DNA from: Arcobacter sp. EP1
Lineage (GTDB): Bacteria; Campylobacterota; Campylobacteria; Campylobacterales; Arcobacteraceae
Direction of reading: 5' to 3'
Assembly (NCBI GenBank): GCA_001655195.1
Contig: LPNY01000139.1
Location: 128,554-192,553 of the forward strand
Length of the DNA: 64,000 bases
Shown: positions 3,701 to 54,730 of the stretch, one piece after another
Layout of the letters: every line of letters begins with the position of its first letter
Position numbering within the stretch: the stretch's first letter is position 1
The notes under the pieces: generated by a model
Seen by the model: only the letters and a program-made list of their open reading frames with translations
Database searches by the model: none
Told to the model about the DNA's origin: nothing
Translations under genes and position numbers: made by a program

Positions 3701-3718
3701 TGTGACAGAAACTGTGAC
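3701..3718 (+). promoter_or_regulatory. Direct-repeat operator TGTGAC-N6-TGTGAC (copy 1)
   Basis: TGTGAC at 3701-3706 and 3713-3718 gives a 12-bp period. It lies 50 bp before the first secreted-protein gene, upstream of TATAAT at 3735-3740. The 19-bp core 3703-3721 is repeated exactly at 4474-4492 before the second paralog. The same TGTGAC-N6-TGTGAC arrangement precedes the stand-alone winged-helix regulator (54713-54730). Recognition by that regulator is inferred. Confidence 0.7.
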
Positions 3719-3734
3719 GACTATTATCTAAAAT

Positions 3735-3767: not shown

Positions 3768-4436
3768 ATGAACAGAATTCTAGGAATATTAGTATTGATA
3801 CTAATAAATGTGCAAGCAGATTATAAATTAGTGTTGATTGATGAATCAGGAAATCAAACCCAAGAATGTATAAAGAGTTATAGTTTCTCTAATAATTTAG
3901 AGAGTATATCCCGGCAAAACGGTTTGACAAATGAAAGTTTCTCTCTAGATGAAACATTAACAAATAAAACATGGGTTGACGGAAAGCCAATTTACAGAAG
4001 AGTTTTTTTTATAGAGGATGTACGTTCTTATAATGCGGGAAAAGATGCTTGGATTGCTTTTGCTAATAATATAGATATGGAAACTGTGATAACTGATGAT
4101 ATCGTTATGATTAACCCAAACTATAGAAGAGAAGGTTTAAATACAGATATTTGGTACGTACAGGTTGATTATCGTATTGATACAAAAGAGGTTCGTATGA
4201 ATACAAATTGGCCTGCAGAATGGCCTAAAGAAAATGTCTATGTTGTATTTGAATATACTAAACCAAATGATTCAGTAACTTCTGCATCAAATAGTTTTAA
4301 ATCCTATTTACATTATATACCAAGCTCTTCACAGAATGATGAAGTTAAAACTATTGATTTAAAAGAAAAAGGAGTTCAATTTTTAGAAGGTTACTCTTAT
4401 GATTCTTTATTAGATAGTTGTGAAAAACCTCAATAA
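3768..4436 (+). CDS. Secreted protein of unknown function, paralog 1 of a tandem pair
   Basis: 222 residues with a short hydrophobic N-terminus (NRILGILVLILINVQA) that fits a Sec signal peptide, so the product is probably periplasmic or outside the cell. The N-terminal third (DYKLVLIDESGNQTQEC, KSYSFSNNLES) and the C-terminal part (SYLHYIPSSS, KGVQFLEGYSYDS, then a final Cys) are nearly shared with the next gene; the centre is diverged. Two conserved Cys, in TQEC and near the C-terminus, could form a disulfide. The middle (KTWVDGKPIYRRVF, ANNIDMETVI, VVFEYTKPND) recalls a domain I know from phage tail or structural proteins; this is from memory. Start supported by AAGGAAAAAG. No function can be assigned. 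Confidence 0.85.
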   Translation: MNRILGILVLILINVQADYKLVLIDESGNQTQECIKSYSFSNNLESISRQNGLTNESFSLDETLTNKTWVDGKPIYRRVFFIEDVRSYNAGKDAWIAFANNIDMETVITDDIVMINPNYRREGLNTDIWYVQVDYRIDTKEVRMNTNWPAEWPKENVYVVFEYTKPNDSVTSASNSFKSYLHYIPSSSQNDEVKTIDLKEKGVQFLEGYSYDSLLDSCEKPQ

Positions 4437-4471
4437 TAGATTAGATTATTGAATAAAAAAAGAGAATAAAG

Positions 4472-4489
4472 TATGACAGAAACTGTGAC
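4472..4489 (+). promoter_or_regulatory. Direct-repeat operator (copy 2), first half TATGAC
   Basis: TATGAC at 4472-4477 and TGTGAC at 4484-4489 keep the 12-bp period of copy 1, with the same N6 spacer (AGAAAC). The site is 31 bp before the second paralog's start, and a TATAAA follows at 4498-4503. A separate operator for each paralog suggests each has its own promoter. Confidence 0.65.
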
Positions 4490-4519
4490 GACAGTACTAT
4501 AAAATAAAAGGAGAAATAA

Positions 4520-5269
4520 ATGAAAAAAGTTTTAAGTTTAGGGATATTAAGTATATTGAGTTCATTATCTTTATATGCCGATTATATGTTGGTTTTAACT
4601 GATAGTGAAGGTAATCAAACACAAGAGTGTGTGAAAAGTTATAGTTTCTCTAATAATCTGGAGAGTTTAGTACATAGTGATAATTTTGAGACCGAAAGTC
4701 TATCATTAAATGAGGTTAGAACAAATAAAAAATGGATTGATGGGAAGCCAATTTATAAAAGAGTATTTCGTTATTATAATGAAAATGGGATCAAATTAAA
4801 CTATGTTCATTATTTAGGTGCAGCTGATAATATAGAACAGGTCATAACTGGAAATCTTGTAGCTAGACGCACAAATGAGCCAACAGATCCTGTAGATCAC
4901 TCAAATTTAATGTTTACGGATACATCTTATTTAGTTCATTTTGTTGGTTATGCAAAAAAAGAGTTTTTACAAACCTATGAAGATAGTAACACTATTATAG
5001 GCAATAATGGAGAAGGGACTAATGGTTTTTGGTTTAAAGGATTAATGACTCATCCGGCATATGATGAGTTTTATTATACAGTAGAATACACTAAAACAAT
5101 TGATACGGAAAATAGTTCCAAAAATACTTTTATATCATATTTACATTATGTACCAAGTTCATCTAATGCTAATGAAGTAGTTACAAAAAATATGGAGGAG
5201 TTAGGTGTTCAGTTTTTAAAAAATTATATCTATGATAGTTCAATTAATAGCTGTACAAAGGTTAATTAA
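4520..5269 (+). CDS. Secreted protein of unknown function, paralog 2 of a tandem pair
   Basis: 249 residues with a clear signal peptide (KKVLSLGILSILSSLSLYA|DYM). It shares with the preceding gene DYxLVLxDxxGNQTQEC, KSYSFSNNLES, WxDGKPIYxRVF, YTK, FxSYLHYxPSSS, GVQFL and a penultimate-region Cys. The central section is about 30 residues longer and largely different, so the shared flanks look like a scaffold carrying a variable middle. GKPIYKRVF, AADNIEQVI and YYTVEYTKTID resemble a phage tail-type domain (memory only). The start follows AAAGGAG by 6 bp. It converges on ackA with a shared terminator. Confidence 0.87.
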   Translation: MKKVLSLGILSILSSLSLYADYMLVLTDSEGNQTQECVKSYSFSNNLESLVHSDNFETESLSLNEVRTNKKWIDGKPIYKRVFRYYNENGIKLNYVHYLGAADNIEQVITGNLVARRTNEPTDPVDHSNLMFTDTSYLVHFVGYAKKEFLQTYEDSNTIIGNNGEGTNGFWFKGLMTHPAYDEFYYTVEYTKTIDTENSSKNTFISYLHYVPSSSNANEVVTKNMEELGVQFLKNYIYDSSINSCTKVN

Positions 5270-5283
5270 AATTTAGAAGCAAT

Positions 5284-5318
5284 AAAAAAGGGATGAAGAT
5301 TAACTTCATCCCTTTTTT
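5284..5318. terminator. Bidirectional rho-independent terminator
   Basis: AAAAAAGGGATGAAG (5284-5298), loop ATTAA, and CTTCATCCCTTTTTT (5304-5318) form a perfect 15-bp stem flanked by A and T runs. It serves both the secreted-protein gene on plus and ackA on minus. Confidence 0.92.
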
Positions 5319-5347: not shown

Positions 5348-6547
5348 CTAGTCAATACCCTTAACGATTTTGTACGTATCATTTGCAATAACATACTCTT
5401 CATTTGTAGGAATAACAAAGATTCGACCTTTAGAACCATTTGTAGAAATGTCTCTTGCCTCACCTGATCTTTTGTTATTTTTAGTTGGATCAATGTTAAG
5501 TCCCATGTAATCTAAACCAGAACATACTTTTTCTCTGATTAATGCAGCATTTTCACCAATACCACCTGTGAAACATAATGCGTCAACACCATCAAGTGCT
5601 GCTGCGTATGAACCAACGTATTTTTTGATAATGTAAGCAATCATATCAACTGCTAATCTACATTTGTCATCACCTTCATCCATACCTTCTAATACTTCTC
5701 TTAAGTCAGAAGATTTTTCAGAGATACCAACGATTCCAGATTTTTTGTTAAGTACATCTAACATTTCTTTGATTGATAAACCATCAGTTTCCATCATGTA
5801 CTGGATTGCACCCGCACCAATGTCACCTGATCTTGTTCCCATCATAAGACCTTGAACAGGAGTAAGACCCATAGATGTATCAATACATTTACCATCAAAT
5901 ACAGCAGATACAGAAGAACCGTTACCTAAATGACATACGATTACTCTTGTGTTGTGTTTTTTGTCTAACATTTCTCTTGCAGCTTCAGATACGAAGAAGT
6001 GGCTAGTTCCGTGGAAACCATATTTTCTTACACCATTTCTTGTGTATTGGTCATATGGAAGTGGGTACATAAATGCATAGTCAGGCATAGTTTGGTGGAA
6101 AGCAGTATCAAATACAGCTACATTTGGCTTACCTGGCATTAAGTCTTGACAAATTTCCATACCCATGATGTTTGCAGGGTTATGTAAAGGAGCTAAAGGA
6201 ATTAACTCTTTCATTTTGTTAATTACTGCATCAGTTACCATTACAGAACCAGCGAATTCTTCTCCACCGTGTACTGCTCTGTGTCCAATAGCTTCGATAT
6301 CATCAACAGAACTAATAACTTTACCTTCACCATCAGTTAACGTTTTTAATACTAACTCAATCGCCTCTTTATGTGTAGGCATTGCAGTTTCTACTTTGAT
6401 TTTTTTGTCATCACCAAATTCGTGTTTTAAAACACCATCGATTCCGATTCTTTCACAAATCCCTACTGCTAAAACCTCTTTGTTGATTGGGTTCATTAAT
6501 TGATACTTTAATGACGAACTTCCTGCATTTAAAATGAATACTAACAT
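5348..6547 (-). CDS. ackA: Acetate kinase (copy 1, distal to pta)
   Basis: 399 residues, full family length. It interconverts acetate plus ATP with acetyl phosphate plus ADP. Visible signatures: LNAGSSSLKYQL at the N-terminus (Asn7), GHRAVHGGE (substrate Arg), FDTAFHQTMP (catalytic Asp), CHLGNGSSVSA, MGTRSGDIGAG (Arg of the transition state), FTGGIGEN and the C-terminal NEEYVIAND with its Glu. It follows pta by 30 bp on the same strand, the usual pta-ackA operon. A second acetate kinase gene lies upstream of pta. Confidence 0.97.
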   Translation of the reverse strand: MLVFILNAGSSSLKYQLMNPINKEVLAVGICERIGIDGVLKHEFGDDKKIKVETAMPTHKEAIELVLKTLTDGEGKVISSVDDIEAIGHRAVHGGEEFAGSVMVTDAVINKMKELIPLAPLHNPANIMGMEICQDLMPGKPNVAVFDTAFHQTMPDYAFMYPLPYDQYTRNGVRKYGFHGTSHFFVSEAAREMLDKKHNTRVIVCHLGNGSSVSAVFDGKCIDTSMGLTPVQGLMMGTRSGDIGAGAIQYMMETDGLSIKEMLDVLNKKSGIVGISEKSSDLREVLEGMDEGDDKCRLAVDMIAYIIKKYVGSYAAALDGVDALCFTGGIGENAALIREKVCSGLDYMGLNIDPTKNNKRSGEARDISTNGSKGRIFVIPTNEEYVIANDTYKIVKGID

Positions 6548-6577
6548 ATATTTTCTCCCTTATTTAGTGTTTAATTT

Positions 6578-7570
6578 TTAAGCTTGAGTTGCAGTGATAG
6601 CAACTAAGTTTGAAATGTCCTCTACGGAACATCCTCTTGATAAATCATTTACTGGTTTTGCTAAACCTTGTACGATTGGTCCATGTGCATCAGCTTTTGC
6701 AAATCTTTGAACTAATTTATATCCGATGTTACCTGCTTGTAAGTCTGGGAATACAAGAACATTTGCAGTTCCAGCTACTTTTGAGTCTGGTGCTTTTTTC
6801 TTACCAATTGCTTCAACGATTGCAGCATCTGCTTGCATCTCACCATCAAATGCAAAGTCAACATTTCTATCTTTTAAGATTTGAACTGCATTTTGTACTT
6901 TGTCTACTAGTGGGTGTTTTGCACTTCCCATTGTTGAGAATGATAACATAGCAACTCGTGGCTCTAAACCAACAACAGATGCAGCAGTTGCAGCAGTTGA
7001 CTGCGCAATATCAGCTAATTGTTCTGCGTTTGGTTCTGGGTTAACTGCACAATCTGCAAAAAGAATTAAACCATTGTCTCCAAATTGACCGTCAGCTGTT
7101 TCCATTACGAATGCTGAAGATACAGTTTTAACACCAGGAGCAGTTTTAATTACTTGAATAGCTGCTCTTAATACGTCAGCAGTTGCAGAGTTTGAACCTG
7201 CTACTAATCCATCAGCATCACCTAATCTAACCATCATACAACCAAAGAATCTTGGCTCAGTTGTCATGATTTCAGTTGCATCTTCTTTAGAAAGACCTTT
7301 AGATTTTCTAAGTTCAACAAGCTCATTTACATATGCATCAATATTGTCAAATTTCTTTGGATCAATAATCGTAGCTCCCTCAATATTCGCTCCGCATGAT
7401 GCAGCATCAGCTTTGATTGTATCTTCGTTACCAATAAGTACAACATTTGCTGTTTTATCATTTAATACTATCTCAGTAGCTTTTAATACTCTCTCGTCCT
7501 CTGATTCTGGAAGAACGATCGTTCTTAGCTCTTTTTTAGCATTTTCTTTAATACTATCAATTAAACCCAT
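6578..7570 (-). CDS. pta: Phosphate acetyltransferase
   Basis: 330 residues, the short form without the N-terminal regulatory domain of E. coli Pta. It converts acetyl-CoA plus phosphate to acetyl phosphate plus CoA. Family motifs: VLPESEDERVLKAT, VAGSNSATADVLRAAIQVI, FADCAVNPEPNAEQLADIA, and the C-terminal FPDLQAGNIGYKLVQRFA. The SD AAAGGA precedes the ATG at 7570. Upstream lie a TATAAT at 7603-7608 on the minus strand and a TAGCATT-type box (7620-7637), so this is the promoter-proximal gene of pta-ackA. Confidence 0.97.
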   Translation of the reverse strand: MGLIDSIKENAKKELRTIVLPESEDERVLKATEIVLNDKTANVVLIGNEDTIKADAASCGANIEGATIIDPKKFDNIDAYVNELVELRKSKGLSKEDATEIMTTEPRFFGCMMVRLGDADGLVAGSNSATADVLRAAIQVIKTAPGVKTVSSAFVMETADGQFGDNGLILFADCAVNPEPNAEQLADIAQSTAATAASVVGLEPRVAMLSFSTMGSAKHPLVDKVQNAVQILKDRNVDFAFDGEMQADAAIVEAIGKKKAPDSKVAGTANVLVFPDLQAGNIGYKLVQRFAKADAHGPIVQGLAKPVNDLSRGCSVEDISNLVAITATQA

Positions 7571-7602
7571 TCATATATCCTTTCTGCTTTTATGAGTGAC
7601 AG

Positions 7603-7608
7603 ATTATA
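7603..7608 (-). promoter_or_regulatory. Putative -10 box of pta-ackA
   Basis: TATAAT on the minus strand, 33 bp before the pta start and exactly 11 bp after the direct-repeat box at 7620-7637. Confidence 0.6.
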
Positions 7609-7619
7609 AATAAGGAGTG

Positions 7620-7637
7620 TAGCATTAGTGTAGCTTC
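7620..7637 (-). promoter_or_regulatory. Acetate-island box at pta: GAAGCTA-N4-AATGCTA
   Basis: Read on the minus strand, two GCTA-ended heptamers stand 11 bp apart and end 11 bp before a TATAAT. Related boxes precede all three symporter operons (13838-13855, 16184-16201, 16313-16341, 21297-21324). Direct repeats with 11-bp period in the -35 region are typical binding sites of OmpR/PhoB-family regulators. Confidence 0.65.
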
Positions 7638-7791
7638 ACCCTTTTTTTAATCTTGTGTACTGAATATTTTAGTCAAACATTTCAAAAAGATACATAAAAT
7701 CTACATATATAAAAATAAAAATTTAAGATGGGAAGTTTCGTAATAAAATAGAGGATAAATAAAAGATTTTAGAGAGTGGAAAAGTGTAAAA

Positions 7792-7808
7792 TGTACAACT
7801 TTTGTACA
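7792..7808. promoter_or_regulatory. TGTACA-N5-TGTACA motif (copy 1)
   Basis: TGTACA at 7792-7797 and 7803-7808, inside the larger palindrome ATGTACAA-CTT-TTGTACAT (7791-7809). It lies 222 bp upstream of the pta start, just past the second ackA gene. The same period recurs at 14025 and 26373. The binding factor is unknown. Confidence 0.45.
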
Positions 7809-7818
7809 TGATGTTCTA

Positions 7819-7846
7819 TTAACAAAAGCACTTAGGCTTTTGTTAA
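7819..7846 (-). terminator. Stem-loop overlapping the ackA copy-2 stop
   Basis: TTAACAAAAGC (7819-7829) and GCTTTTGTTAA (7836-7846) form a perfect 11-bp stem with a 6-nt loop that contains the stop codon. No long U-run follows, so termination is plausible but not certain. Confidence 0.5.
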
Positions 7847-9019
7847 TTTGTACGTATCGTTTGCGATAACATACTCTTCATTTGTAGGAATAACGTAGAT
7901 TTTTGTTTTTGAATTGTCAGAATTGATTTCTCTATTTTCATCACTTCTAACTTTGTTTTTGTCTTCGTCAATTTCAATTCCCATAAACTCCAATCCAGAA
8001 CATACTTTTTCTCGAATTAGGTCGGCATTTTCACCAATACCAGCGGTGAAACATACAGCATCCACACCTTCTAACATTCCTGCATATGAACAGATATATT
8101 TTTTGATACGATTACATTTCATATCAATTGTTGTTTTTGCTCTTTCATCACCATTTTCACATGCTTCAATAATCTCTCTTAAGTCTGAACTGATACCAGA
8201 AACACCTAAAAGACCTGATTTTTTATTGAGGTAGTTGACCGTTTCTTGTGCACTCATATCTTTTTTCTCCATAAGATATGAAAGTACTCCTGCATCAATG
8301 TCTCCAGAACGTGTTCCCATAATAAGTCCCTCTAAAGGAGTTAGTCCCATAGAAGTATCAATAGACTTTCCATCTCGAACTGCACACACAGAAGAACCAT
8401 TTCCTAAGTGACATACAATAACTTTTGAGTCCTCTTTATTGAGCATCTTTTTAGCTTCATTAGAGACATAGTAGTGACTTGTTCCATGGAATCCATATTT
8501 TCTTACTCCATGATTTTTATAATCTTCATAAGGAACAGCATACATATATGAACTTGCAGGCATTGTTTGGTGGAAAGCAGTATCAAATACAGCCACATTT
8601 GGTTTACCTGGTAGAATTTGTTGTGCGATCTCCATTCCCATGATATTTGCAGGATTGTGTAGTGGTGCTAAAGGAATGAGCTTTTTTAGTTTTGAAATAA
8701 CATCATCATTAACTATGACTGAACTGTTAAAGTATTCTCCCCCATGTACAACTCTATGTCCAATTGCTTGAATCTCTTCAATTGAATCAATGACTTTTCC
8801 TTCACCTTGAGTTAATGTCTCAATAACAATCTCAATTGCCTCTTTATGCGTTGGCATTGTAACATCAAGTTTAATTTTTTCGTCATTGGCTTCATGAACA
8901 AGTTTTCCATCAATTCCGATACGTTCACATAATCCTGTTGCTTTTACTTCAGCAGTTTCTGGATTCATAAGTTGATATTTAAGTGATGAGCTTCCTGCGT
9001 TTAAAACGAGTACTAACAT
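7832..9019 (-). CDS. Acetate kinase (copy 2, upstream of pta)
   Basis: 395 residues from the ATG at 9019, preceded by AAGGAC. An upstream in-frame start at 9058 would add 13 residues not found in the family. All key motifs are kept: LNAGSSSLKYQL, GHRVVHGGE, FDTAFHQTMP, GNGSSV, MGTRSGDIDAG, FTAGIGEN and NEEYVIAND. It differs from copy 1 throughout, for example IDMKCNRIKKYICSY against VDMIAYIIKKYVGSY, so the duplication is not recent. Both copies look active. It might prefer another short-chain acid such as propionate, but the sequence does not tell. Confidence 0.94.
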   Translation of the reverse strand: MLVLVLNAGSSSLKYQLMNPETAEVKATGLCERIGIDGKLVHEANDEKIKLDVTMPTHKEAIEIVIETLTQGEGKVIDSIEEIQAIGHRVVHGGEYFNSSVIVNDDVISKLKKLIPLAPLHNPANIMGMEIAQQILPGKPNVAVFDTAFHQTMPASSYMYAVPYEDYKNHGVRKYGFHGTSHYYVSNEAKKMLNKEDSKVIVCHLGNGSSVCAVRDGKSIDTSMGLTPLEGLIMGTRSGDIDAGVLSYLMEKKDMSAQETVNYLNKKSGLLGVSGISSDLREIIEACENGDERAKTTIDMKCNRIKKYICSYAGMLEGVDAVCFTAGIGENADLIREKVCSGLEFMGIEIDEDKNKVRSDENREINSDNSKTKIYVIPTNEEYVIANDTYKLTKA

Positions 9020-9093
9020 TTGCGTCCTTTTATGCAATATTTTGCAGTAGTATACCATAAGCGCATGTCAAAGATATGTCAAAATTGTGTTAG

Positions 9094-53575: not shown

Positions 53576-54367
53576 ATGCTTGAAGCCCTACAATTTGAGT
53601 TTATGCAAAATGCACTTCTTTCAGGTATTCTTGTTGCAATTAGCGTTGGAATCATTGGTTCACTCATTGTTGTAAATCGTATTACCTTTTTAGCAGGAGG
53701 AATTGCTCATAGTTCATACGGAGGAATAGGTCTTGCTATTTATTTAGGTATTCCTATTTTATTTGGCGCTACTGTTTTTGCTACAATAACTGCAATTTTA
53801 ATTGCTATGATTACCTTTAATAATAAAAGTAGAATTGATGCAATCATCGGAATTATGTGGGCAGCAGGTATGGCGATTGGTATTGTTTTTGTTGATTTAA
53901 CACCTGGTTATAACGTAGATTTAATGAGTTATCTTTTTGGTTCTATTATTGCGGTCTCTTCTGAAGACATACTTTACATGATAGGTTTAGATATTCTTGT
54001 TGTTGCACTTGTCGTTATTTTTTATAAAGAGATTTTAGCTGTATCTTATGATAGTGAATTTGCCAAATTACGAGGTATTAGTGTTAAGTTTTTTTACACA
54101 CTTATTTTAATCCTAGCTGCATTATGTATTGTTGCTGCAATTAGGGTTGTTGGACTTATTTTAGTTATTGCACTACTGACAATTCCAACTTATTTAGCTG
54201 AAAATTTTTGTAATAAACTCTCCTCTATGATGATTTTGAGTTCATTGTTTGCAGCAGTGTTTATGTTAGTGGGATTAGCATTGTCGTATAGTTATGATAT
54301 TAGTTCTGGTGCTGCGATTATAATTGTTGCTATTGTAGGTCTGGTTTTAGGAAAGCTACTTAAGTAG
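53576..54367 (+). CDS. Metal ABC importer permease (ZnuB-like)
   Basis: 263 residues with about 8 membrane helices; ABC-3 family marks are GIIGSLIVVNRITFLAGGIAHSSYGGIGLAI (shown by key residues SLIVVNR, AGGIAHS) and RVVGLILVIALLTIPTYLA. It forms the membrane part of a Zn2+- or Mn2+-type importer. Its 3' end overlaps by 8 bp the 3' end of the convergent winged-helix regulator gene. Confidence 0.92.
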   Translation: MLEALQFEFMQNALLSGILVAISVGIIGSLIVVNRITFLAGGIAHSSYGGIGLAIYLGIPILFGATVFATITAILIAMITFNNKSRIDAIIGIMWAAGMAIGIVFVDLTPGYNVDLMSYLFGSIIAVSSEDILYMIGLDILVVALVVIFYKEILAVSYDSEFAKLRGISVKFFYTLILILAALCIVAAIRVVGLILVIALLTIPTYLAENFCNKLSSMMILSSLFAAVFMLVGLALSYSYDISSGAAIIIVAIVGLVLGKLLK

Positions 54368-54665
54368 CTTCCTCTTCTATTGTCAGTCGACATCCAACAC
54401 GGGGCACATGTTCCACAAGTTGATTGTTGAGTCTTTTACGTAGCCGATAAACCAGTGTTCTGCGTGTTGAGTCTTTTATTGGATAATCTGGCCAAATTGC
54501 TTCTTCAATTGTTTCACTTAAAACAATTTCGCCTCTTTTTTTAAAAAGAAGATCAAAAAGCTTTGTTTCATTTTTTGACAGCAGCACTGGTTCTTCTTGA
54601 TAATACAGAATACATTGAACGCGATTATAAGCATAATCACAACATAAATAAATCGTTTCACCCAT
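54360..54665 (-). CDS. Stand-alone OmpR-type winged-helix regulator without receiver
   Basis: 101 residues. After a short N-terminal strand region (ETIYLCCDYAYNRVQCILYY) comes a complete OmpR/PhoB-type DNA-binding domain: LLSKNETKLFDLLFKKRGEIVLS, then SETIEEAIWPDYP, the recognition helix DSTRRTLVYRLRKRL, and the C-terminal hairpin VEHVPRVGCRL. There is no receiver or membrane helix, and the upstream DNA is noncoding, so it is not a cut-off response regulator. The Shine-Dalgarno is poor. A TGTGAC-N6-TGTGAC repeat lies 48 bp upstream, matching those before the two secreted proteins at 3.8-5.3 kb; self-regulation and control of these are inferred. Confidence 0.85.
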   Translation of the reverse strand: MGETIYLCCDYAYNRVQCILYYQEEPVLLSKNETKLFDLLFKKRGEIVLSETIEEAIWPDYPIKDSTRRTLVYRLRKRLNNQLVEHVPRVGCRLTIEEEAT

Positions 54666-54712
54666 TATATATACTTTTTCTAATTTTCATAACAATATTT
54701 TATCATAAAAGT

Positions 54713-54730
54713 GTCACAGCCCGCGTCACA
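54713..54730 (-). promoter_or_regulatory. Direct-repeat operator TGTGAC-N6-TGTGAC (copy 3)
   Basis: On minus TGTGAC at 54730-54725 and 54718-54713, a 12-bp period with spacer GCGGGC. It is followed after 5 bp by a TATGAT-like hexamer and lies 48 bp before the regulator start, close to the 50 bp seen at 3701-3718. The spacer differs, so only the half-sites are conserved, as expected for protein-binding repeats. Confidence 0.7.

Follow-up and report, generated by a model that had tools for sequence, protein, structure and literature searches.

Sequence comparison of the tandem paralogues P0001 and P0002, encoded in a 64,000-nucleotide stretch of Arcobacter sp. EP1 DNA (hereafter, the window), indicates that the domain in the middle of both proteins is homologous to a module that closes tail and tail-fibre proteins of tailed phages. 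Taking all the evidence together, we consider it reasonably probable that each gene gives rise to an exported protein in which a split scaffold carries an inserted guest domain, captured from phage fibre tips and afterwards diversified, and that the product works as a ligand binder at or outside the cell surface.

Two paralogues with a constant frame and a variable centre

The two open reading frames lie exactly where an earlier note, made from the letters of the window alone, had placed them (Table 1), with sppA and ackA as their neighbours in the window, and scaffold and domain make up nearly the whole of either protein. Overall, P0001 and P0002 are 40% identical (BLASTP, E 7e-47). In particular, protein identity amounts to 82% in the N flank and 52% in the C flank, and to 69%, 15% and 50% at the start, in the centre and at the end of the domain, respectively. 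At the DNA level the values are 78% for the N flank, 65% for the C flank and 43% for the centre, the last of which is about background, since this DNA is AT rich. The strongly different middles described in the note are thus evident, whereas its "nearly identical" flanks describe the N flank well and overstate the similarity of the C flank.

Table 1. Features of the tandem genes and their surroundings (positions in the window)
Feature	Position	Strand	Basis
Promoter box of gene 1, TGTGAC-N6-TGTGAC direct repeat	3701..3718	+	
-10-like hexamer TAAAAT, exactly 10 nt after box 1	3729..3734	+	
First paralogue P0001, 222 aa	3768..4436	+	ORF, BLASTP against P0002
Signal peptide of P0001	3768..3818	+	By eye, cleavage between ...VQA and DY
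Scaffold N-terminal half with first Cys, P0001 residues 18-46	3819..3905	+	Alignment, segment identities
Phage fibre-tip-type domain with variable centre, P0001 residues 56-168	3933..4271	+	Phage-only profile, 2.5e-15
Scaffold C-terminal half with second Cys, P0001	4272..4433	+	Alignment, segment identities
Promoter box of gene 2, one mismatch (TATGAC, first hexamer)	4472..4489	+	
-10-like hexamer TAAAAT, exactly 10 nt after box 2	4500..4505	+	
Second paralogue P0002, 249 aa	4520..5269	+	ORF, BLASTP against P0001
Signal peptide of P0002	4520..4579	+	By eye, cleavage between ...LYA and DY
Scaffold N-terminal half with first Cys, P0002 residues 21-49	4580..4666	+	Alignment, segment identities
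Phage fibre-tip-type domain with variable centre, P0002 residues 59-195	4694..5104	+	Contig searches, phage-only profile
Scaffold C-terminal half with second Cys, P0002	5105..5266	+	Alignment, segment identities
Bidirectional intrinsic terminator, common to gene 2 and convergent ackA	5284..5318	.	

The scaffold is recognizable by the motif DYxLVLTDxxGNQTQEC..YSFSNNLES in its N part and by SYLHYxPSSS...GVQFL...C in its C part. The two conserved cysteines that had been pointed out, C37 and C245 in P0002, are invariant in the alignment of all seven family proteins; one belongs to each part of the scaffold, and the two would probably be joined as a disulfide. Inspected by eye, the N termini look like signal peptides, with K/R, a hydrophobic core and an A-x-A-like end before D-Y, and the junction of A with D-Y/F is kept in the N termini of the seven family proteins in the alignment, which is consistent with export. 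No surface anchor is visible in P0001 or P0002, so the proteins could remain periplasmic.

There are no phage structural or replication genes beside the pair, which lies in no recognizable prophage, and a whole-genome search found no further copies in the window genome. Downstream, two different acetate kinase genes could be noticed by eye around one phosphotransacetylase gene (ackA-pta-ackA, 5348-9058, minus strand).

When P0001 and P0002 were compared with Pfam, PHROGs, NCBIfam and PADLOC, nothing exceeded any cut-off, and an NCBIfam match to a Leptospira lipoprotein (17.7 bits, the cut-off being 50) was taken as chance. That no described family could be named, as the note had put it, is borne out by Pfam, PHROGs, NCBIfam and PDB sequences; a known periplasmic family without phage relation, named there as a possible refutation, did not turn up, and a text search of the literature found neither the motif nor such a family.

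Homology of the guest domain with a phage module

The note had likened the segments WxDGKPIYxRVF, NI..VI and YTKxxD to a domain of prophage structural proteins, and the profile tests identify them as the conserved edges of a homologous one. This phage domain, defined here from tailed-phage proteins, follows the motif YSTxExKTNKxWIDGKPIYRK...EYTKTTD, with a variable stretch between the two conserved ends. When genome contigs were searched with P0002 alone, one relative emerged, a 144-aa ORF (EIKTNKKWIDGKPIYRK...HNISDVDII...LEYTKTTD) located between tail genes and holin and lysin genes; the prophage that contains it belongs to an uncultured Bacilli bacterium. With tblastn, P0002 had no match in phage and plasmid records. 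A DNA pattern of the start motif matched 30 viral contigs, and a profile scan detected the domain in about 155 viral contigs.

The 97 distinct phage copies agree at the start and the end of the domain and differ in the middle, in sequence as well as in length. The domain stops 0-1 residue from the C terminus in 70 of the 87 complete copies; its carriers include a tail-collar protein (L049; PF07484) and collagen-like tail fibres (L048 and L062), some of the phage proteins have two copies in tandem, and some of the genes sit between baseplate and holin/lysin genes. The position in phage proteins suggests that the domain is a receptor-binding module. Several phages have multiple variable-tip copies, as tandem genes or two per protein (L015:3001-4315, L100, L108 and L120).

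The phage domain matched nothing in Pfam, PHROGs, NCBIfam or PDB sequences. The AlphaFold2 model predicts an all-beta structure (pLDDT 95.7), for which Foldseek returned no significant match in the PDB (best E 0.014, TM below 0.5), the nearest non-significant folds being the R2-pyocin fibre and several tailspikes; in a viral structure library it retrieved phage proteins, including tail fibres, with E values to 1e-11. The receptor-binding regions of R-type pyocin fibres and tailspikes (6ct8, 6cl6, Fri1 gp49 and the Sf6 tailspike) are all-beta and distal on the fibre, as is the phage domain, but with E 0.014 at best and TM below 0.5 the resemblance is only a general one.

For the relationship between the phage domain and the window proteins, we used a profile of 108 positions built from 24 phage sequences, without any scaffold-family protein. 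Applied to 104 genomes of the window's family, this phage-only profile retrieved the seven scaffold proteins (E 9e-12 to 2.5e-15) and no further match, covering positions 1-108 of 108 in five copies and 2-106 in P0001. Furthermore, HHalign of the family alignment against the phage alignment gave a probability of 99.2 and an E value of 1e-19, and the P0001 domain resembles that of the L049 tail-collar protein (36% over 115 aa, E 2e-12) more closely than that of P0002. On these three results we base the conclusion that the phage and scaffold-protein domains are homologous. All seven proteins share the same build, that is, a conserved start, a variable centre and a conserved end, in that order.

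The alternative that the motifs converged, so that the phage match reflects chance or composition, draws on the weak alignment of the centre, the strongest phage matches lying in the first 25 and the last 10 residues of the domain. However, the phage-only profile covers the full domain, with E down to 2.5e-15, and gave no other match in the 104 family genomes or in 396 other genomes of the phylum; convergence thus has a very small chance of being right and is in practice refuted. A scan of 397 genomes of the phylum gave no further match to the domain and no prophage donor.

Different from the tailed-phage module, which is unnamed in Pfam, PHROGs and NCBIfam and mostly closes its protein, the same domain (by profile) in P0001 and P0002 is internal, followed by about 54 residues and set in a putatively exported two-cysteine scaffold. 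P0001 and P0002 thus contain a member of this domain type without being tail proteins themselves. Phage tail-fibre proteins of the Tail Collar (PF07484) and collagen-like (PF01391) types carry the domain at the C terminus, whereas P0001 and P0002 have neither a Collar domain nor collagen repeats.

The full-length model of a window protein reached a mean pLDDT of 55.8, with the centre mostly below 50 and strands in an apparently similar order, and in Foldseek this model, poor in its centre, returned noise only. Because of the poor centre, the fold of the guest was taken from the phage homologue: in the window proteins, the guest would likewise be all-beta, as a homologue of the tip module at the C terminus of phage tail fibres.

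An accessory family and a common promoter box

The scaffold family counts seven members in four genomes, namely, the window pair, one gene each in G398 and G427 and three tandem genes in G413, the last being the kind of tandem array with variable middles that the note had suggested looking for. The G398 and G427 genes occupy the same site as the window pair, after sppA, which is present in 102 of the 104 genomes of the family. Among the best 30 loci, a family member directly follows sppA in just three, those of the window genome, G398 and G427, and the place is otherwise taken by ackA, a DEAD-box helicase gene or other cargo; 27 of the 30 genomes examined have an sppA-ackA site that is vacant or occupied by different cargo.

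The G413 trio adjoins a tyrosine integrase; tRNA-linked integration was discarded, with no tRNA in 20 kb. Besides the integrase and the three scaffold genes, this island (L037:7000-11462) encodes a 293-aa secreted protein of no known family. In G442, a match to the C-terminal part (E 5.5e-6) lacks a proper ORF and seems to be either a remnant or a chance similarity. G363, G375, G401, G125, G170 and G559 yielded weak matches only (16-21 bits), which establish family membership for none of them.

The distribution bears on a further possibility, namely, that the proteins are secreted interbacterial or host-directed effectors that use the phage-type domain only for targeting. The export signal (by eye), the tandem variable copies and an island with an integrase would suit this role, but scaffold and domain leave almost no room in the protein, none of the four libraries revealed a catalytic or toxin domain, and no immunity-gene candidate lies between the two genes, so that we regard an effector as very doubtful.

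One of the G413 genes, G413c, resembles G413b in its flanks (89% and 71%) and G427 in its centre (45% against 24%). The flank tree joined G413b and G413c with full support and rejected the grouping of G413c with G427 (p-AU 8e-36); the domain tree preferred G413c with G427, the alternative having a p-AU of 0.07. We consider this good, not conclusive, evidence, suggestive of module exchange or flank conversion in G413c. Multiple captures of the domain found no support, and a single clade was not rejected (p-AU 0.88). Since the domain is wide in phages and narrow in bacteria, transfer probably went from phage to bacterium: the domain would have been captured from tailed phages, perhaps once, and would then have spread with the scaffold as accessory DNA, with later diversification by duplication, rapid change of the centre and exchange between copies.

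The same variation is relevant to a purely structural role, in which an outer-layer or matrix protein would use the domain to trimerize or stabilize, its loops drifting neutrally. Fibre C-terminal domains often help trimerization, and phage copies likewise differ in the centre, so that change there is compatible with the fold. However, the flanks are strongly constrained, only the centre changes and there is mosaic exchange, a combination that selection on specificity fits better than drift; a structural role is therefore unlikely in our judgement. The targets of diversity-generating retroelements also combine a constant frame with a hypervariable part for binding, comparable to the constant frame and variable part of P0001 and P0002, but they change by point changes in place, whereas the variation of the present family includes large length changes and copy-to-copy mosaics.

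Both window genes are preceded by a common 19-base element (Table 1). The pattern TGTGAC-N6-TGTGAC-N10-TANNNT has 23 exact sites in the 3.0-Mb window genome, against 0 for a reversed-pattern control, and in 18 of them a start codon follows within 16-73 bp. The box also occurs before TIR, SIR2-TPR, Tle1-like phospholipase-family and FeeM-type N-acyl amino acid synthase genes, and the synthase gene adjoins genes for an OmpR-type response regulator and a 7TM histidine kinase. In G403 (L187), the synthase, response regulator and membrane protein genes all have the box.

Other boxed genes could be noticed as well. In related genomes, these are a response regulator and neighbouring genes (L188, L189 and L202) and, by eye, an SbcD-like nuclease gene in G369 and G398 (L199 and L205). 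The window itself contains a gene (54360-54665, minus strand) whose 101-aa product is an OmpR-type DNA-binding domain on its own, lacking a receiver domain (Trans_reg_C, E 1e-9), with the same box at 54713-54730 and the whole promoter at 54697-54730, both on the minus strand.

A direct repeat placed ten bases ahead of a -10 element would suit activators of the OmpR/PhoB type, and for this reason the response regulator adjacent to the synthase (C38:410688-411350) is a candidate controller of the boxed genes, which may represent a signalling regulon including defence-type genes. The box is absent upstream of the G398 family member, and G413 has none at up to one mismatch; hence, co-regulation by the box is not general in the family.

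The box is also one of the points to be weighed for receptor masking, in which an exported tip domain would occupy the cell's own phage receptors, or act as a decoy, and so block adsorption, with variable copies covering different phages. Such a role would agree with the fibre-tip type of the domain, with a promoter box in common with TIR and SIR2-TPR genes, both defence-type, and with the accessory, tandem and island-borne distribution. We nevertheless judge it rather unlikely: P0001 and P0002 have no PADLOC match, the box is missing at the G398 relative and (up to one mismatch) in G413, and no domain-bearing phage of this family's bacteria was found, the only host-labelled relative (L004) being a Bacilli MAG. 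A more elaborate version, which appears quite improbable, is that the captured tips are swappable exported receptor blockers, switched together with the TIR/SIR2 genes by a circuit of the two-component system and the N-acyl-amino-acid synthase, as a community-level defence.

Possible function of the guest domain

Returning to the guest domain, an apparent export signal, a constant frame, a domain of the distal phage-fibre type and a variable centre together point to ligand binding outside the cytoplasm. Ligand binding would be the most likely job of the proteins, with the variable centre setting specificity, as inferred for fibre tips. Hence, P0001 and P0002 would most likely be secreted or surface binders, lectin-like or receptor-masking, and an adhesin-type function is plausible from the sequence.

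The kind of module is known, and its setting is unexpected: a phage fibre-tip module, missing from the domain libraries tested, occurs outside phages as an exchangeable part of what appears to be an exported bacterial protein. Should the domain bind ligands on cell surfaces, the family would offer small, testable and naturally varied binders, and a comparison of their ligands with those of phage fibres would reveal what the module recognizes. With a fast-changing tip domain set in a conserved two-cysteine frame, the bacterium has probably put a captured phage binding module to its own use.
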